Below are positions 8,694 to 27,374 of a stretch of 33,457 nucleotides of DNA, in pieces (position 1 is the stretch's first letter; each line of letters begins with the position of its first letter). The stretch spans positions 1 to 33,457 of the forward strand of contig JAJTCI010000001.1 in the NCBI GenBank assembly GCA_021323155.1, written 5' to 3'. The position numbers were made by a program, and so were the translations under genes. This DNA is from Chitinophagaceae bacterium (lineage in GTDB: Bacteria; Bacteroidota; Bacteroidia; Chitinophagales; Chitinophagaceae). Below the pieces are notes generated by a model. It made no database searches. It was not told the origin of the DNA and saw only the letters and a program-made list of their open reading frames with translations.

Positions 8694-11198
8694 ATGACAG
8701 CATTAGATTCTACCAACGAGGCTTTTGGTCTTGCAGTTGAGATGGTGAACCAGAGTAACCGGAATATCTTTCTCACCGGTAAGGCGGGTACAGGAAAGAC
8801 CACGTTCCTCCGTTACATCAAGGCCCACAGCCTGAAGGAGGCCGCTATAGTGGCGCCGACGGGTGTGGCGGCAATTAATGCCGGGGGTACTACGATCCAT
8901 TCATTCTTCCAGTTGCCCTTCACACCCTTTTTGCCCGATGGGTTCATGGGAGGGGAAGAAAGCACCAATAAGCACACGCTGCTTGGAAAAATAAAGCTCA
9001 ACCGGGACCGGATCAAGGTGTTGCAACAACTGGAATTACTGATCATCGACGAGATCAGCATGGTGCGATGCGATGTGTTGGATGCGATCGACACGGTGCT
9101 GCGGCATTTCCGTCATCGTCATGCGGAACCGTTCGGCGGCGTACAGGTATTGCTGATCGGGGACATGTACCAGTTGCCGCCTGTAGCGATCGACGCGGAG
9201 TGGAGCCTCTTGTCGCGTGCGTATGATTCGCCATATTTCTTTGACAGTCATGTTATGCGGCAGGCGCCGCCGGCATATATCGAATTTGATAAGATCTATC
9301 GCCAGCGTGACGATCGTTTTGTGGAACTCCTCAACCAGGTGAGGCATAATGCATTGACCGATGAAGGCCGGCAGATCTTGCAAAGTCTCTACAAGCCAGG
9401 GTTCGCGGGGGGCAAAGAAGATGGCTATATTATACTCACCACCCATAACGCCAAAGCAGACGCCATAAACAACCAGGAGTTGTCGAAGCTGAAGCAAAAG
9501 ACCGTTTCTTTCAAGGCGGAAATAAAAGGCGACTTCAGTGATAAAGCCTACCCGGCCGATGAGACATTGCAACTTAAAGAAGGCGCGCGTGTAATGTTCA
9601 TCAGGAATGATAAGGAAAAGGTCAGACGATACTTCAATGGGAAGATCGGCGTGGTGGTACGTATTTCAGACAACGGGATCTTTGTGCAATGCAACGATCA
9701 GCCGGAAGAAATTGAAGTGCAGAAGGAAACCTGGGATAACATACGGTACAATGTCAATAAAGGGAACAACCAGGTAGAGGAAAATGTGATCGGTTCATTT
9801 TCGCAGTTCCCGTTACGCCTGGCCTGGGCCATTACGATCCACAAGAGCCAGGGATTGACTTTCGAGAAAGCGATCATAGACGCGGGGGCGGCATTCGCGC
9901 CCGGGCAGGTGTACGTGGCGCTGAGCAGGTGTACGGCTTTGGAAGGGATCGTGTTGCATAGCCATGTTACCGGGGCCAGCCTGAAAACGGATCCACGGAT
10001 CGCCCAGTTTTCGCAACGTTGTTCCTCTAGCAAGTTGAAAGATGAACTGAGCCAGTCAAAGCGGGAATACCAGCAACAAATACTGCTTAACCTCTTCGAC
10101 CTTTCACAACTATCAAGAGCAACGCGGGTGTTGACTAAACTTGCTCGCGAAAATACAAAGGACTTTAACGATGCTACGCTGCCGTGGCTGGAGAACCTGG
10201 AAGTAAAGGTGGCCGCTCCTGAAAGCATCGGGCTGAAGTTCAAAGCGCATCTTGAACAATTCTTTTCCGAGCCTGTGGCACCGGAAGAAAATGTGGCTTT
10301 GCAAAAACGCGTGAAAGAGGCTTCCGAATATTTTGTAAAAGAGCTTGACGCAGTATTACAGTTGATCGGTAGCTCTCCCGCGGTCACTGACAGCAAGCTC
10401 CAGGCAAAAGCCTATAACGATGGCCTCAAAGATGTGTTCACGTTTGCCGCCGAAAAGAAACACCTGTTCCATGGGTTCGTGAATGGATTTACAATAGAGA
10501 CTTATTATAAGCAGAGAAAGAGTTTCGTTCTGCCTTCTATCCAGGTCAATAGCTATTCCACGACCACGAGTGGAGCCCTGGCCAGCGAACAACAGCACCC
10601 GGAATTACACTATCGCCTAAGACAATTGCGGAACACGATCTGCGGACAAAAGAACCTGCCGGTATTTATGGTAGCTGCTACAAAGAGCATTGATGAAATG
10701 ACGCAATTCCTGCCGCAGCGCAAGGAAGAGCTGGTAATGATCTCGGGGTTTGGCAGAGCGAAGGTCAACAACTATGGAGAGCAGTTCCTCTCGATCATCA
10801 ACGAGTACTGTGCGGAGCATGGGCTCGCTTCGAATGTAGACCAGATACCATCAAAAAAAGAGCGCACACCCAGAAGTGAACGGAAGGAGAAAGTGGACAC
10901 GAAGGCACTGAGCTATGATCTTTACAAGAAAGGGAATACGATTGCCGAAGTAGCGGCAACGAGGAACCTGGCGGTGACGACTGTCGAGGGCCATCTCGCT
11001 TCCTATGTTGCGAAAGGACTGATACCGGTGCAGGAATTCATTGAAGCGGAAAAGCTTGGCATCATAGAGCCCGCGCTTGAAAATTACGATGGCGGCCCTA
11101 TTACACCAATCATGGCGCAACTGGAGAACAAGGTTAGTTTTAGCGAAATAAGGTTTGCGCTTGCCGCAAAGGAATGGGAAAAATTGCAGACCGCTTAA
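8694..11198 (+). CDS. PIF1-like AAA helicase with C-terminal HRDC and helix-turn-helix domains
   Basis: Walker A GKAGTGKTTFLR, Walker B LLIIDEISMV, WAITIHKSQGLTFEKA...VYVALSRC. HRDC-like LRNTICGQKNLPVFMVAATKSIDEMTQFLP. C-terminal TIAEVAATRNLAVTTVEGHLASY HTH. Confidence 0.92.
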   Translation: MTALDSTNEAFGLAVEMVNQSNRNIFLTGKAGTGKTTFLRYIKAHSLKEAAIVAPTGVAAINAGGTTIHSFFQLPFTPFLPDGFMGGEESTNKHTLLGKIKLNRDRIKVLQQLELLIIDEISMVRCDVLDAIDTVLRHFRHRHAEPFGGVQVLLIGDMYQLPPVAIDAEWSLLSRAYDSPYFFDSHVMRQAPPAYIEFDKIYRQRDDRFVELLNQVRHNALTDEGRQILQSLYKPGFAGGKEDGYIILTTHNAKADAINNQELSKLKQKTVSFKAEIKGDFSDKAYPADETLQLKEGARVMFIRNDKEKVRRYFNGKIGVVVRISDNGIFVQCNDQPEEIEVQKETWDNIRYNVNKGNNQVEENVIGSFSQFPLRLAWAITIHKSQGLTFEKAIIDAGAAFAPGQVYVALSRCTALEGIVLHSHVTGASLKTDPRIAQFSQRCSSSKLKDELSQSKREYQQQILLNLFDLSQLSRATRVLTKLARENTKDFNDATLPWLENLEVKVAAPESIGLKFKAHLEQFFSEPVAPEENVALQKRVKEASEYFVKELDAVLQLIGSSPAVTDSKLQAKAYNDGLKDVFTFAAEKKHLFHGFVNGFTIETYYKQRKSFVLPSIQVNSYSTTTSGALASEQQHPELHYRLRQLRNTICGQKNLPVFMVAATKSIDEMTQFLPQRKEELVMISGFGRAKVNNYGEQFLSIINEYCAEHGLASNVDQIPSKKERTPRSERKEKVDTKALSYDLYKKGNTIAEVAATRNLAVTTVEGHLASYVAKGLIPVQEFIEAEKLGIIEPALENYDGGPITPIMAQLENKVSFSEIRFALAAKEWEKLQTA

Positions 11199-11533
11199 GA
11201 ACCACGATAAGTGGAATAACCGAAAGGGTTCAGTAAAAGAGGGACATGATAATGTTCTCCTGAATTGATCTCGAAAACGATCTCTACGTATGGATAAAAG
11301 GTCTTCACCTGTTCTTTGTCGAAATAGTCTTTCGTCTCGAAGCGTATTTTATATATGCCCTGACGCAACACCATAGAATCGCTCAGCAGGTCGGGTATCC
11401 TGCCATCGGAATTGGTAACACCGCGGGTCACTTCTTTCCACTCGTCATTGCCACCCTGGTAGAGGATGATCACGATGCCCAATGCCGGGCGGCCTTTTGT
11501 TGTGTCAAGGATATGCGTAGTGATCTGTCCCAT
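11195..11533 (-). CDS. uraH: 5-hydroxyisourate hydrolase
   Basis: N-terminal ITTHILDTTKGRPA and C-terminal HYHVPLLLNPFGYSTYRGS are diagnostic of the transthyretin-like HIUase. Confidence 0.96.
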   Translation of the reverse strand: MGQITTHILDTTKGRPALGIVIILYQGGNDEWKEVTRGVTNSDGRIPDLLSDSMVLRQGIYKIRFETKDYFDKEQVKTFYPYVEIVFEINSGEHYHVPLLLNPFGYSTYRGS

Positions 11534-11536
11534 GGG

Positions 11537-12043
11537 TTATGAATTGATAAGTTTATCCAACCGCAGCTTTGTTATTTGCATCTGTTGGTCGGCGGCGATC
11601 TCTAATTCTTCGCCCGGTTCATTGTTAATTCTTGACTCTAATAATGCGAGCATTTCTTCAGCGGATTTCCCGGTTGCACATACTATGAAGATATATCCAA
11701 ACTTGTCTTCGTAGCGACGATTCCCTTCCGACAAGCGGTTCAATGCTTCTTCCGGTGCTGTATTCACTCCGGATTGCTCACTCGAAGCCCATTGGGCAGT
11801 AGAGGCGAACTTTTCCCGGAGCGCATCCACTTCACCGATCTTCGGGTGGTGACTGAAGGCCTCTTTCCAATCTTCCTCCGAGCACTCGTACCATTTCTCC
11901 TCCGCGTCTTCCATCAGGTCAACATAATCCTCTGCGGGAAATACACCGAGCATTTTCTCAGCCCATGCGTTAGATCCGCAGCACCTGAGTAATTCCTGTT
12001 TGAGTTGTTCCGGAGGAAGGTGATTGAGTTCGTGTAAAGTCAT
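11537..12043 (-). CDS. uraD: OHCU decarboxylase
   Basis: HHPKIGEV...EQSGV...LSEGNRRYEDKFGYIFIVCATGKSAEEML...LESRINNEPGEELEIAADQQMQITKLRLDKLI. Confidence 0.95.
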   Translation of the reverse strand: MTLHELNHLPPEQLKQELLRCCGSNAWAEKMLGVFPAEDYVDLMEDAEEKWYECSEEDWKEAFSHHPKIGEVDALREKFASTAQWASSEQSGVNTAPEEALNRLSEGNRRYEDKFGYIFIVCATGKSAEEMLALLESRINNEPGEELEIAADQQMQITKLRLDKLINS

Positions 12044-12113
12044 ATGCTATAATGTAGGGAAACAGCCGCAAAGTTCCTGCCTTAATATCGCCGCCGATGA
12101 AATTATGCTTCTG

Positions 12114-13109
12114 TTATTTCTTAATCCTGCCGCGGCAGCGAATCCTGCTGATGCCTCCATCGGGGAAGATGGTCAGCTTTACATGTGTGAACGGTTCTTT
12201 GCTTTCGCTTTTGAACTCGTGTTCATGGTCCGCTTTGAGTTTGCTTTGTGGAAGGATGGTTGTCCATTTTGCTTCCCAGAAGTTGGCCTCACTGTCCTCA
12301 CCCTCGATGACGCAACCATCCACCTGGCAGCTGTCGGGATAGTTGCCTTTGAAGTGACATGTGTCGATCAATAGATTGTCGATCACACCGCGGTGGGCAA
12401 GTCGAACGATCACCCAGTCATGGTTATTCGGTGTACGGTTCCTTTTTGTTTCCCAGCCGTCACCCATGTTTACCCCCCGCCCCGGCATGATCAGATTGTC
12501 CATATGCGAGAAGAACATGTCGTTGCAAAGGATCGCCTTGGCGCCATTCACAGCCGCGGCCAGGTCGATCGTTTCCTTTTCACTTACCAGGTTCCAGTCT
12601 TTGAAGACTTCGCCATATACCTTCAGCCTGGCGACACCCCCATCCGGGTAGATGTGCAACCGGAGGTGGGTATAGATATCCCTGCCGGCTATTTCATAGA
12701 AATTCTGCGAGCCTGGTTGCAGAGATGATTTCGGAAGTATCTCCTTCCACTCGGCTTTTTCCCAGCTTTTGCCATCAATGATATATGCTGCTTCTATAGA
12801 TGCGTGTGGCGGGTGATTGCCAAGAAAGTAATTCGTGTCTATATCCACACCATGGATCTTGCCCGAGGTGGCCAGTTGAACCACGCACCAGTCGTGGCCG
12901 GGCGTACGCTTACGGCGTGATTCCCATCCATCCATCCATTTACCACGGTCGGTGTATTTGTCAGAGATAAAAATTCCCCTGCCCGGCTTGATCAGGTTCT
13001 CCTTTTCGGCGAAAAAATCATCCGTTGCATATAACACCTTGCCACCAAGACGTTCCGCCGCAAGATCAGTGAGTGCGGTAAAGGAAGGAGCTGATTTATC
13101 TTCTGTCAT
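12114..13109 (-). CDS. alc: Allantoicase
   Basis: Two allantoicase repeats: DGWESRRKRTPGHDWCVVQLATSGKIHGVDIDTNYFLGNHP and DGWETKRNRTPNNHDWVIVRLAHRGVIDNLLIDTCHFKGNYP. Confidence 0.95.
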   Translation of the reverse strand: MTEDKSAPSFTALTDLAAERLGGKVLYATDDFFAEKENLIKPGRGIFISDKYTDRGKWMDGWESRRKRTPGHDWCVVQLATSGKIHGVDIDTNYFLGNHPPHASIEAAYIIDGKSWEKAEWKEILPKSSLQPGSQNFYEIAGRDIYTHLRLHIYPDGGVARLKVYGEVFKDWNLVSEKETIDLAAAVNGAKAILCNDMFFSHMDNLIMPGRGVNMGDGWETKRNRTPNNHDWVIVRLAHRGVIDNLLIDTCHFKGNYPDSCQVDGCVIEGEDSEANFWEAKWTTILPQSKLKADHEHEFKSESKEPFTHVKLTIFPDGGISRIRCRGRIKK

Positions 13110-14451
13110 TCAGTAATATTTTGCCTTCGTTCAAATGTAACAACTTTCCCTGGCCATACACCTGCTTTCCTGAGAGGAAGGTTTGCTGCACAACACCCGA
13201 AAGGGTTTCATTTAAATAGGGCGTCGTTTTGTGGCGGTGCAGTATGATATCGCTGGTAACGGTAAAGGACTTCCCTGGATCCCAGGTAACAAAGTCCCCA
13301 TCATAACCTTTTTCGATCGCTCCTTTCCGGTTAGTGGATATTGCGCCCTGGACGAGGCGGGCTGGGTGCGCACAAAGCCAGCTGGCCACGTCATCGGGTG
13401 TGCAGCCATGCTTTTTTGCCGCTGTCCATAAAGCCGGCAATGCGAACTGTATAGAAGAGAGGCCACCCCAGGCCTCGGCGAGATTCCCGGTGTCGAGATG
13501 TTTCAGCTCCGGCGGTGCAGGTGAATGATCAGTAGCAACAAAATCGATAATGCCATCTTTTAATGCCTGCCAGAGTTTTTCGTTGTTCTCTTTTTCACGG
13601 ATGGGAGGCGCACATTTATACTCGCATTGTCCGTCCGGTATGTCTTCGGCGTTAAAGTACAGGTAATGCTGCGCGGTTTCCACCGTTAGTGGTAGTCCCT
13701 TTTGTTTTGCTCTCGTGATCTGTGTTATCGAATCGGCGGAAGAAAGGTGAACGATATGGGTACGGCAGTTAAATTCTTCGCATAATCGTATCATTAGCGC
13801 GATGGCGTTGTCTTCCCACTGTTTTGGCCGGGAGCTTAGGTATGTTTGGTAGGACCTCACGCCTGACCCCTCTCCAAAGGAGAGGGCAGTCGAAAGCTCG
13901 CAATGCACCAACAAAGGGAGACCATACTTGGCGATCAGCGGCATTACTTTTCTCAAATCCGCTTCAGTAACATTGGGGAACTCATCGATACCTGAATGGG
14001 TAAGAAAGGCTTTGAAGCCGAGGACGCCAGCCGCGATCAATGGTTCCATCTCTTTTTCATTGCCTGGTATCACGCCTCCCCAGAAGCCAACATTCGTATG
14101 CAGCTTGTTGTTTGTTGCATCCAGCTTTTCACGGAACGCTTGTTTGGTTGTGGTCACCGGTGACGAATTGAGCGGCATATCTACCAGCGTGGTAACTCCA
14201 CCAGCAACCGCGGCCCGGGTCGCCGTATCAAATCCTTCCCATTCGGTCCTTCCTGGTTCGTTGATGTGCACATGTGGATCGACAATGCCGGCCATTAGTA
14301 TATTGTCACCAACTTCTACCACGGTACAATCCAATCCTTCGGGCGCTCGTTCTGCCACTTCAACAATAACACCATTGCGTATGAGGACCCACGCTTCTTT
14401 TGTTCCAGCCGGGGTTATTGTTTTCGCGCTATGTATCACCTGGTCGATCAT
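13096..14451 (-). CDS. allB: Allantoinase
   Basis: GIVDPHVHINEPGRTEWEGFDTATRAAVAGGVTTLVDMPLNS...HCEL...HIVHLSS...ATDHSPAPPELK: cyclic amidohydrolase in a purine-catabolism context. Confidence 0.95.
   Translation of the reverse strand: MIDQVIHSAKTITPAGTKEAWVLIRNGVIVEVAERAPEGLDCTVVEVGDNILMAGIVDPHVHINEPGRTEWEGFDTATRAAVAGGVTTLVDMPLNSSPVTTTKQAFREKLDATNNKLHTNVGFWGGVIPGNEKEMEPLIAAGVLGFKAFLTHSGIDEFPNVTEADLRKVMPLIAKYGLPLLVHCELSTALSFGEGSGVRSYQTYLSSRPKQWEDNAIALMIRLCEEFNCRTHIVHLSSADSITQITRAKQKGLPLTVETAQHYLYFNAEDIPDGQCEYKCAPPIREKENNEKLWQALKDGIIDFVATDHSPAPPELKHLDTGNLAEAWGGLSSIQFALPALWTAAKKHGCTPDDVASWLCAHPARLVQGAISTNRKGAIEKGYDGDFVTWDPGKSFTVTSDIILHRHKTTPYLNETLSGVVQQTFLSGKQVYGQGKLLHLNEGKILLNDRR
13855..13889. 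repeat. REP-like palindromic element embedded in frame in allB
   Basis: CCCTCTCC-AAA-GGAGAGGG (13868-13886) plus flank CCTCACGCCTGAC; encodes STALSFGEGSGVRSYQ on the minus strand. Confidence 0.65.
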
Positions 14452-14502
14452 CGTTGACTAAAGTAAAAACTAATTCCTTACATTAGAGAGATAAACTAAC
14501 GG

Positions 14503-15903
14503 ATGCTGAACATCATCATATTTGTGGTCTTAGGGTTTATTCTTTTTATGATGTTCTTCATCGAACACAAATTCCCTTCTATTGTTAAGAAAGCCAGCGA
14601 ACACAGGGACGAAGAATATTTTCACGAAAAGGTAGAGGTATCACGCGGGTTCATTTATGCGGCGATCGTTCTGGTAGTGGTACTGATGATCGCTGCGTTG
14701 TACATGATGGTAAAAGGCACGCCTTACGAAGGCCATATCATGGAATGGCTGAACATTATTATGCGGGTGATGCACGTTACGTTCGGTATCGCCTGGATCG
14801 GGGCCTCATTTTATTTTGTGTGGCTGGAGAATGCGCTTAACCGGAAGGACGGTGTAAGGGATGAACTCGCCGGGAACCTGTGGGCGATCCATGGAGGCGG
14901 TTTCTATTACCTGGAGAAGTATAAAGTGGCGCCGCAACAGGTGCCAAAGCAATTGCACTGGTTCAAGTACGAGGCGTATTTTACCTGGCTGTCGGGTTTC
15001 TGCATGATGTTCATCGTGTATTACTTTAACGCGAAAGCCATGCTGGTAGATGACACTGTGCTCAAACTCACCGCTGCACAAGCGATTGGTATCGGCATCG
15101 GTTCGCTCGTGGTGGGCTGGGTGATCTATGACCTGCTTTGCAAGACACCACTTGCCAGGAGTAAGTGGTTCGCTCCTGTCGGATTTGTTTTACTGGTGGC
15201 GTTCGCCTGGGGTTACGCGAACGTATTCAATAGCCGCGCTGCTTATATTCACTTTGGTGCGATGCTGGGTACTATCATGGCGGCCAACGTATTCTTTGTT
15301 ATCATTCCCGCGCAAAAGGCAATGGTGAATGCTGCAAAGCAGGGGAAACCCGTGAACCCGGAACTTGGTAAGCATGCGGGACTTCGATCACTCCACAACA
15401 ACTATTTCACGCTACCCGTTTTGTTCGTGATGGTGAGCAATCATTTTCCTTCCACGTTCGGTCACCAGTACAGCTGGGCGGTGCTCGCGGCGATATCCGT
15501 TGGCGCAGCTGGCGTAAAGCATTACCTGAACCTGAAGGAACGTGGTCAATACAATATATGGGTGATGCCGGTGTCTGCGCTGATCCTGCTGGCAGTTGCT
15601 TTTGTCACCGCCCCACCCAAACCGGGCGCTTGCAAAGAGAATATCAGTTACGCGGAAGTAAATGCCATCATCACTACCCGTTGTATACAATGCCATAGCA
15701 GCAAACCGACCGATGATGTATATACCGCACCGCCTAACGGCGTGACGTATGACATACCCGCGAACATCGTGAAGCTGAAAGACCAGGTCATGCAGCGCGT
15801 TGTAGTGACGAAGACCATGCCTTTAAATAATAAGACAGGCATGACGCCGGAGGAAAGAGATGTGATCAGGTGCTGGATAGAGCAGGGGGCGAAGATGAAG
15901 TGA
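14503..15903 (+). CDS. puuD: Membrane-bound urate hydroxylase/oxidase with C-terminal cytochrome c domain
   Basis: Eight or nine hydrophobic segments, then ITTRCIQCHSSKPTD (CxxCH) near the C-terminus; divergent from allB-alc-uraD-uraH. Confidence 0.93.
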   Translation: MLNIIIFVVLGFILFMMFFIEHKFPSIVKKASEHRDEEYFHEKVEVSRGFIYAAIVLVVVLMIAALYMMVKGTPYEGHIMEWLNIIMRVMHVTFGIAWIGASFYFVWLENALNRKDGVRDELAGNLWAIHGGGFYYLEKYKVAPQQVPKQLHWFKYEAYFTWLSGFCMMFIVYYFNAKAMLVDDTVLKLTAAQAIGIGIGSLVVGWVIYDLLCKTPLARSKWFAPVGFVLLVAFAWGYANVFNSRAAYIHFGAMLGTIMAANVFFVIIPAQKAMVNAAKQGKPVNPELGKHAGLRSLHNNYFTLPVLFVMVSNHFPSTFGHQYSWAVLAAISVGAAGVKHYLNLKERGQYNIWVMPVSALILLAVAFVTAPPKPGACKENISYAEVNAIITTRCIQCHSSKPTDDVYTAPPNGVTYDIPANIVKLKDQVMQRVVVTKTMPLNNKTGMTPEERDVIRCWIEQGAKMK

Positions 15904-25532: not shown

Positions 25533-27374
25533 TTAGTTGGGAACATTGATCGTAGTGTTCACCATTGTCACCGAAGCGTTCAACGAGATGGCCCTGCCGT
25601 TCAGCACGGTCTGCACCATGTTACCCGCGGTAGAAAGTGTGACGCCCGCAGAAGCGATGATGGTACCGGTCATTACTCCGCCACCTGCTCCGTTGATCGT
25701 TGCCGCCGAACCTACGTACCAATAGACGTTCTTCGCCTGCGCACCGTTGATCAATATCACGCTCTTGGCACCTGTTGGTCCCGCGACGCCTACTGTCAAC
25801 CCGGCCGCCGTCTGGAAGATCCATTCCGCGTTGGGGTTACCCATAGCGTCCAGCGTAAGATTCGCTGTAGAAATGTTGAATGTTCCACCTGCTGCCTTAT
25901 AAACGCCCGGCGGTAATGTCAAGCCACCCAGTTCACCTGCGCCAGGGTCAGTACCACCTGGTCTGCCTGCGGGGGAGATGCTGTTATATGTATTGTTGGC
26001 CGCGAGCAATCCCGCTGTTGCGATCTGGAAAGACGCTGCTGAACCCGGTGGTGGGGGCGCGGTGTGTACGCGTCCTGTTACCAGGCCTATATTCAAAGGC
26101 GTTTCAGTGTAGATATCACCTGTAGTGCCATCATGGAAACCGGTTATCAGTGTAGAGGCCGCGATGGTTCCGATGCTTCCGTTGTTGATCACCGTATTTA
26201 TTCCCTGGTTCGTTATACCAGCACTTCCACCAAATGCGCCGAAGATCGATGCGTCAGTAAGTGGTGGAGGAGGTGGTGGTGGCGGTACGATAGGAACGAT
26301 GGTGGTAAAGCTCCATACATAATCAGCCGCGAGTGAGTTGCCGGCCGTGTTCTTCGCGCCGGTTGTGATAGTAGCGGTGTAAACGGTATTCGGTAAAAGG
26401 AAACCGGTCGGTGTGAATGACGCTGTATTGCCGGAGTAAGTAACGCTACCCGGTATGGTTACGGCACCCTGTTTTAATAAGAAAGTTGATGTATTAATGG
26501 TGGCGGGGTCCATGACGGAGCTGAATGTTGCCCTGATCACTTTGGCCAGCGCTACGCCTGTTTCTCCATTGAATGGATCTGTTGAAACCACTGTTGGAAT
26601 GCTGCCCGTGGCAAAACTCCAGGTGTAATTGGAAGCGATCGAGTTGCCCAAAGGATCTTTCGCGCCCGTGGTGATCGTACCGGTATATACAGTAGAAGGA
26701 GCGAGTGGTGCAGAAGGCGTAAATGTAGCCGTCATACCACTATAAGTTACCACACCAGCTACGGGTGTTGCGCCCTGCTTTAATAAGAATGTTGTTGAGT
26801 TGATCGTCGCGGGATTCATGTTGGTGCTGAACAACGCGGTGATGATCTTATTGATGGGCACGTTGGCCGCCCCATTGGCAGGATCAGTTGAGACAACGAT
26901 GGGTATCGTTCCCGTGTTAAAGGTCCAGGTATAATCTGCAATCATCGCGTTGCCGGCAGGGTCCTTCACCTTATTGGTGATGGTGGCGGTATAGACCGTG
27001 TTGGAAGCCAGCACCGATGAAGGTGTAAAGCTTGCCGTAACACCGCTATAGCTCACCGACCCGGGTATCGCTGTGGTGCCCTGGTGTAATAAGAAGGTGG
27101 TTTGATTGATCGTTGTGGGATCCATCACCTCGTTGAACATGGCGGAGATGACTTTTGTTGTAACTACGTTAACGGCGCCATTAACAGGGTCCGTGGAAAT
27201 TACTTCCGGGCATATGCCGGAGGTCTCACCGGTGAACGTGTCTTTTTTGCATTGCCATGAAACGATCGCTATAAGCAGTAACATGATCCAGCCAGTCCAG
27301 GATAGTTGCTTGCTGATCTTCCCGTAGCGGGAAGCGCTCGTTGTTTCAGCAGGCAAAGTGTTTCTATTTTTCAT
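25533..27374 (-). CDS. DUF3494 ice-binding-type protein with three Ig-like (Big_5) repeats, probable lipoprotein
   Basis: N-terminal hydrophobic segment ending WQCKKD; three 102-aa repeats (V(I/V)STDP.NG...); poly-Pro linker; DUF3494-like domain ...GGLTLPPGVYKAAGGTFNISTANLTLDAMGNPNAEWIFQTAAGLTV...VYWYVGSAATI...GTIIASAGVTLSTAGNMVQTVLNGRAISLNASVTMVNTTI. Confidence 0.92.
   Translation of the reverse strand: MKNRNTLPAETTSASRYGKISKQLSWTGWIMLLLIAIVSWQCKKDTFTGETSGICPEVISTDPVNGAVNVVTTKVISAMFNEVMDPTTINQTTFLLHQGTTAIPGSVSYSGVTASFTPSSVLASNTVYTATITNKVKDPAGNAMIADYTWTFNTGTIPIVVSTDPANGAANVPINKIITALFSTNMNPATINSTTFLLKQGATPVAGVVTYSGMTATFTPSAPLAPSTVYTGTITTGAKDPLGNSIASNYTWSFATGSIPTVVSTDPFNGETGVALAKVIRATFSSVMDPATINTSTFLLKQGAVTIPGSVTYSGNTASFTPTGFLLPNTVYTATITTGAKNTAGNSLAADYVWSFTTIVPIVPPPPPPPPLTDASIFGAFGGSAGITNQGINTVINNGSIGTIAASTLITGFHDGTTGDIYTETPLNIGLVTGRVHTAPPPPGSAASFQIATAGLLAANNTYNSISPAGRPGGTDPGAGELGGLTLPPGVYKAAGGTFNISTANLTLDAMGNPNAEWIFQTAAGLTVGVAGPTGAKSVILINGAQAKNVYWYVGSAATINGAGGGVMTGTIIASAGVTLSTAGNMVQTVLNGRAISLNASVTMVNTTINVPN
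26298..27203 (-). repeat. Three tandem 306-bp (102-aa) Ig-like domain repeats
   Basis: Repeats start at residues 58, 160 and 262 of the protein. Confidence 0.85.

Follow-up and report, generated by a model that had tools for sequence, protein, structure and literature searches.

A short palindromic element lies in frame within an intact allantoinase gene (AllB) of a Chitinophagaceae bacterium, and we show here that it is a solo member of a family of units, each consisting of a GC-rich hairpin and a GTGAGG-type foot, that is scattered across this bacterial family. Separate AllB lineages carry the same unit at the same loop, and units of this kind flank DUF559 nuclease domains that lie in frame within housekeeping proteins, their feet facing outward. 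We propose, with a probability of roughly two in three, that the AllB element is a solo end unit of a family of palindrome-bounded, in-frame DUF559 cassettes, of which the DUF559-bearing form would be mobile, and that it was captured by a permissive, disordered loop.

The window, by which we mean the whole stretch of 33,457 nucleotides that was analysed, reads CCCTCTCCAAAGGAGAGGG at 13868–13886 and CCTCACGCCTGAC at 13855–13867 on the plus strand; on the minus, coding, strand the element is CCCTCTCCTTTGGAGAGGGGTCAGGCGTGAGG, which encodes LSFGEGSGVRS, and the in-frame translation of the full unit is (A)LSFGEGSGVRS (Table 1). This confirms the description in an earlier note on this DNA of a perfect palindrome with 8-bp arms and a 3-nt spacer that encodes SFGEGSGVRS within AllB, and a search of the window bore out that the copy is the only one there. 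By chance, about 0.5 perfect hairpins with 8-bp arms and a 3-nt loop are expected in 33 kb (33457/4^8, our own arithmetic), and the hairpin alone is unremarkable. By the same arithmetic, the exact 19-nt core common to the dispersed family has a chance expectation of about 2e-7 per window, and the match of the AllB element to the repeat family is far beyond chance.

Table 1. Features of the AllB element and its host gene, in window coordinates.
Feature	Position	Strand	Description	Basis
Solo palindromic unit	13853..13886	-	Hairpin CCCTCTCC-TTT-GGAGAGGG, spacer GTCAGGC, foot GTGAGGTC	Window sequence and family copies
Hairpin core	13868..13886	-	Perfect 8-bp arms, 3-nt loop	Window sequence
Foot	13853..13860	-	GTGAGGTC, outer end of the unit	Window sequence and family copies
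Variable AllB loop	13852..13896	-	LSTALSFGEGSGVRS, residues 186-200; almost all element sequence	Low-confidence loop in model
Allantoinase AllB	13096..14451	-	451 aa, intact	451-codon ORF; TIGR03178 profile match

The match of the host gene to TIGR03178 (E 1.9e-159) exceeds the profile's own cut-off, and residues H60, H62, K147, H183, H235 and D308 are invariant among 24 homologues. AllB is probably a working enzyme, because genes of purine breakdown adjoin it, namely those for allantoicase, OHCU decarboxylase, HIUase and a PF06181-type urate oxidase. The cluster spans 11195–15903 of the window, with HIUase, OHCU decarboxylase, allantoicase and AllB on the minus strand and the urate oxidase on the plus strand; elsewhere (25533–27374) the window encodes an Ig-like repeat protein with an ice-binding-like domain (PF11999).

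Alignment of 55 AllB homologues supports the earlier placement of the element in a variable loop between the HCE motif and the YxxSRP region (YxxYxxSRP in our analysis): between HCE and YxxY the sequence is free to vary and is mostly 13–17 residues long. Loops with and without the element are nearly equal in length, and the original reading of an insertion into AllB therefore gives way to one of no net insertion. Most AllBs lack the element, which fills the loop in three separate lineages (L014, L065 and L071) and in two reading frames; the window's own loop is filled by it, as is that of L065 (genome G411) in the same frame (PLSLGEGTGVRS), and L071 (G108) carries it in another frame (SPLLWRGVGGEV). 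On the tree, three changes are needed to account for the element-bearing AllBs, and at least two of them are required by branches with good support. A fourth lineage, L233 (G064), has a decayed-looking sequence in the loop that is a probable copy of the element. A loop that is ancestral and conserved at the protein level in distant AllBs, which the earlier note had named as telling against capture, is not what we find: judged from these homologues, the loop sequence is not ancestral, and protein-level conservation is ruled out because different reading frames are used. Modelling of the loop, also suggested earlier, was carried out with AlphaFold2 from 24 homologues and gave a good fold (pTM 0.90) with the element loop at low confidence; the loop is probably disordered and seems permissive, its length kept and its sequence overwritten. 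A collection-wide pattern search for AllB with the element in this loop returned a single Archangium match, chance-like in appearance. Separately, the loops of L060, L062, L068, L070 and L077 resemble repeats with a 7-nt period (ACTCACA, GATTCAC), and similar arrays of heptamers are scattered through most of the respective genomes as well as the MAG that contains the window (G000 C1:5217-5290).

The proposal that the element belongs to a dispersed, REP-like palindromic family is supported by its distribution, with a half-hairpin-plus-foot pattern present in 179 of 399 same-family genomes at up to 107 copies each. The exact 19-nt core occurs in 6 of 60 relatives, including six copies in a same-genus genome that is 99% complete, and a reversed control pattern of the core had zero matches in the same 60. 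An absence of further genomic copies, which had been named as a result that would weaken the proposal, does obtain in the window's own MAG, where the core occurs once, but not in the genus or the family; that MAG is 76% complete and in 321 contigs, so more copies may be absent from it. The units are not intergenic alone, as had been claimed: of 38 copies that were classified, 18 are well inside long ORFs, in both orientations. From hairpin start to foot end, 44 of 57 distinct copies at fetched loci measure 30, 33 or 36 nt, lengths that result from arm and spacer changing together. This is suggestive of a frame-neutral unit length, but the copies are related, the same lengths also occur outside genes and the AllB copy is 32 nt by this measure.

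Dihydroorotase provides a case of clean insertion. Exactly 14 residues separate ATDHAPH from the next motif in the dihydroorotase-like proteins of 22 relatives, whereas the element-bearing proteins of G009 and G014 have 34, an insertion of 20 residues at which the solved dihydroorotase 2gwn shows a gap. Between the G014 and G009 genes, third-position identity at same-residue codons is 54%, whereas the 30-nt element itself is 97% identical and the sequence just upstream of it 50%; likewise, in the leucyl-tRNA synthetase (LeuRS) genes of G001 and G402 the element is 97% identical and its flanks are 63% and 53% identical. Selection at the DNA level, or homogenisation among copies, thus acts within coding sequence.

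The units also occur in pairs around a nuclease domain. PF04480 matches are common across the 399 genomes, many of them within very long open frames, and all 40 long-frame loci that we fetched proved to be DUF559 domains (PD-(D/E)XK, Vsr-like nuclease domains) within larger proteins, 15 of which were checked by Pfam. The hosts include LeuRS, MetRS, chorismate synthase (AroC), methionine synthase (MetH), CinA, adenine deaminase, tryptophan dioxygenase and methylmalonyl-CoA mutase fusions. The inserts were placed against solved MetRS, LeuRS and chorismate synthase; at the insert sites, the solved relatives without DUF559 have six residues (MetRS 1rqg) or directly adjacent residues, 237 and 238 (LeuRS 1h3n). 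Positions of the catalytic E, D, E, D and H are kept in 39–40 of the 40 domains. In two LeuRS proteins, those of the same-genus genome G001 and of genome G009, the domain lies between two inverted units. More generally, hairpins lie within 150 nt of embedded DUF559 on 28 of 39 5′ sides and 23 of 39 3′ sides, compared with 12 of 329 control windows from the same ORFs. Hairpin-plus-foot units are found within 300 nt of 30 of the 40 embedded domains, on both sides in 13, and the foot faces outward in 42 of 43 such units; by these criteria and within this distance, the remaining 10 domains have no unit. The same 300-nt test found units near 2 of 20 free-standing DUF559 genes and near 1 of 20 Y1 (RAYT-type) genes in element-bearing genomes, none of the latter, which sample a subset of Y1 subclasses, having units on both sides; the link is therefore with the embedded form. 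Across different host genes, the similarity of the units tracks that of the DUF559 domains (r 0.44 and 0.42; 0 of 500 permutations; shared ancestry uncorrected).

The AllB unit matches the ends of the LeuRS and AroC cassettes in both its hairpin and its GTGAGG-type foot. DUF559 was not found at the AllB locus, where the unit stands alone, nor was there a PF04480 match in the window's own, incomplete MAG; the AllB copy is therefore at most a non-autonomous relative of the proposed cassette family.

Some of the embedded domains have further peculiarities. Three LeuRS proteins (L114 in G015, L154 in G150 and L157 in G248) have a DUF559 insert at both of two recurring sites; in a fourth (L176, G232), tandem palindromic units (DIPNTSPKERG-type repeats) lie upstream of the insert; and a type I restriction HsdR protein (L174, G078) combines GIY-YIG and DUF559 domains in one ORF (residues 265–331 and 466–571). 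GIY-YIG, considered as an alternative partner of the units, showed no clear excess in element-rich genomes (10 genomes searched).

The foremost alternative is that the unit is an ordinary REP mobilised by a RAYT (HUH Y1 transposase) and that the link with DUF559 is secondary, for instance through cassettes that insert into or recruit existing REPs. Hairpin and conserved foot do give the unit REP-like anatomy, Y1 matches occur in 305 of the 399 genomes, and a Bacteroidetes RAYT subclass (2.6) is flanked by atypical structures (PMC6006769). At the genome level, with a strong-match threshold of 1e-15 and shared ancestry uncorrected, at least three elements are present in 83 of 230 genomes with a strong Y1 match versus 21 of 169 without (odds ratio 4.0), and in 83 of 175 genomes with a strong DUF559 match versus 21 of 224 without (odds ratio 8.7). 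Genomes with both genes are the richest, 56% of them reaching three elements, as do 30% of those with DUF559 but no strong Y1 match, 15% of those with Y1 but no strong DUF559 match and 4% of those with neither. Six genomes (G065, G071, G216, G246, G261 and G341) have at least ten elements without a strong DUF559 match. Against these correlations stand the single Y1 gene of 20 with a unit nearby, the persistence of elements in three well-filled genomes that have DUF559 but no strong Y1 match (G068, G168 and G262), and the outward-facing paired units specific to embedded DUF559. The association with a TnpA-REP/RAYT transposase that the earlier note had proposed to check is accordingly not supported, and we regard mobilisation by RAYT as unlikely.

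Less probable again is a passive origin, in which units whose hairpins promote slippage during replication, or template switching, gather in permissive loops and linkers with no dedicated enzyme, and DUF559 cassettes merely share such places. The heptamer-like loops of other AllBs, which resemble unrelated dispersed repeats, suggest a loop that accepts any repeat; AllB shows no length gain, and the tandem run in L176 would also fit. Such a process would not, however, be expected to yield strictly outward-facing pairs or units that co-vary with the DUF559 sequence, and it sits poorly with DNA-level identity kept across diverged orthologues. Selection of the unit as a regulatory or functional RNA or DNA feature, or as a useful peptide in AllB, is very improbable: the predicted transcript hairpin is stable (-18.8 kcal/mol for 43 nt), but this is not exceptional relative to shuffled sequences (z -1.5; 18 of 200 as good), and most AllBs lack the unit, which is read in two frames in a low-confidence, probably disordered loop. 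An accidental likeness, or an AllB loop that is ancestral and palindromic by coincidence, would accord with the unchanged loop length, the single copy in the MAG and the chance-level hairpin, but is next to untenable in the face of an exact 19-nt core and foot matching family copies and of L071, whose different frame protein conservation cannot explain.

We infer that DUF559 moves the units. In the cassette reading that we favour, palindrome–DUF559–palindrome would be the autonomous mobile form; its nuclease would cut or nick near unit or target sites, repair or gene conversion would then copy units to new places, and solo units such as that in AllB would be non-autonomous end copies. Telling against this reading are the single unit and the lack of a PF04480 match in the incomplete MAG, the six element-rich genomes without a strong DUF559 match, the scarcity of units at free-standing DUF559 genes, the ten embedded domains with no unit nearby and the unchanged length of the AllB loop. 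The precise ends of units and cassettes would be expected near GACCTCAC...GTGAGGTC. Survival within genes could be favoured by most frames through the unit being stop-free and by many of its lengths being frame-neutral, with the copies that last lying in surface loops tolerant of change. The AllB unit would have replaced the resident loop, through conversion or through insertion plus deletion, and the enzyme most likely carries it as a neutral passenger. That these findings reveal a class of selfish element in Bacteroidota, in which a palindrome-bounded DUF559 nuclease enters coding sequence and stays unspliced in essential enzymes, with solo palindromes like that in AllB as non-autonomous derivatives, is a broader proposition that we consider evenly balanced.

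Rickettsia and some REPs provide known cases of palindromic repeats read in frame in proteins, and no one enzyme is agreed to be responsible for them; the consistent association of such repeats with a conserved nuclease domain inside essential enzymes offers a testable candidate mover, and would point to a little-described form of selfish DNA that lives inside proteins. If correct, it would account for unusual additional domains and short peptides (PSPLERG, LSFGEGxGVRS) that are annotated as ordinary protein sequence in many proteins of these bacteria, and it calls for an explanation of how a nuclease domain is tolerated by LeuRS or MetRS.

Inteins and homing endonuclease genes likewise give conserved enzymes an in-frame nuclease domain, at sites used repeatedly in the same host gene, and the embedded DUF559 domains resemble them in each of these respects. 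The ends of the DUF559 cassette differ from those of inteins in being REP-like palindromes, and the domain presumably stays in the host protein, because Pfam detected no intein splicing domain around DUF559 in the 15 host proteins scanned. The endonuclease-like protein 3hrl is a direct sequence homologue of the embedded domain (E 2.8e-21) but is a small separate protein. Searches confined to the open-access literature returned nothing relevant on DUF559 with palindromes, tRNA synthetases, homing endonucleases or Bacteroidetes.

The likeness to REPtrons lies in a hairpin with a conserved foot, in paired inverted units around a candidate enzyme and in many solo copies, the hairpin being dispersed and multi-copy in the family although present once in the window's incomplete MAG. 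The unit departs from them in that neither a GTAG nor a CGTC tetranucleotide tag marks one end, the foot being GTGAGG-type and both tags absent from the unit, and in that no cognate Y1 gene flanked by units was found among the Y1 subclasses sampled. Instead of an HUH Y1 transposase, the units here flank a DUF559 domain that lacks a start and a stop of its own and is embedded in a host protein, and a DUF559 link is not found in the available text on RAYT–REP systems (PMC6006769). Rickettsia palindromic elements (RPEs) and other intragenic REPs are described, in the available part of the source, as in-frame palindromic repeats inside ORFs of functional proteins in several host genes, with REPs in tRNA synthetase genes also on record (PMC3733652); the same text contains no link to a DUF559-type nuclease. 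Like RPEs, the units described here are palindromes in frame within protein genes and absent from orthologues, as seen in AllB, dihydroorotase, LeuRS and MetRS; they differ, as far as that text goes, in sequence, in flanking a DUF559 nuclease domain and in occurring in a group of housekeeping genes.
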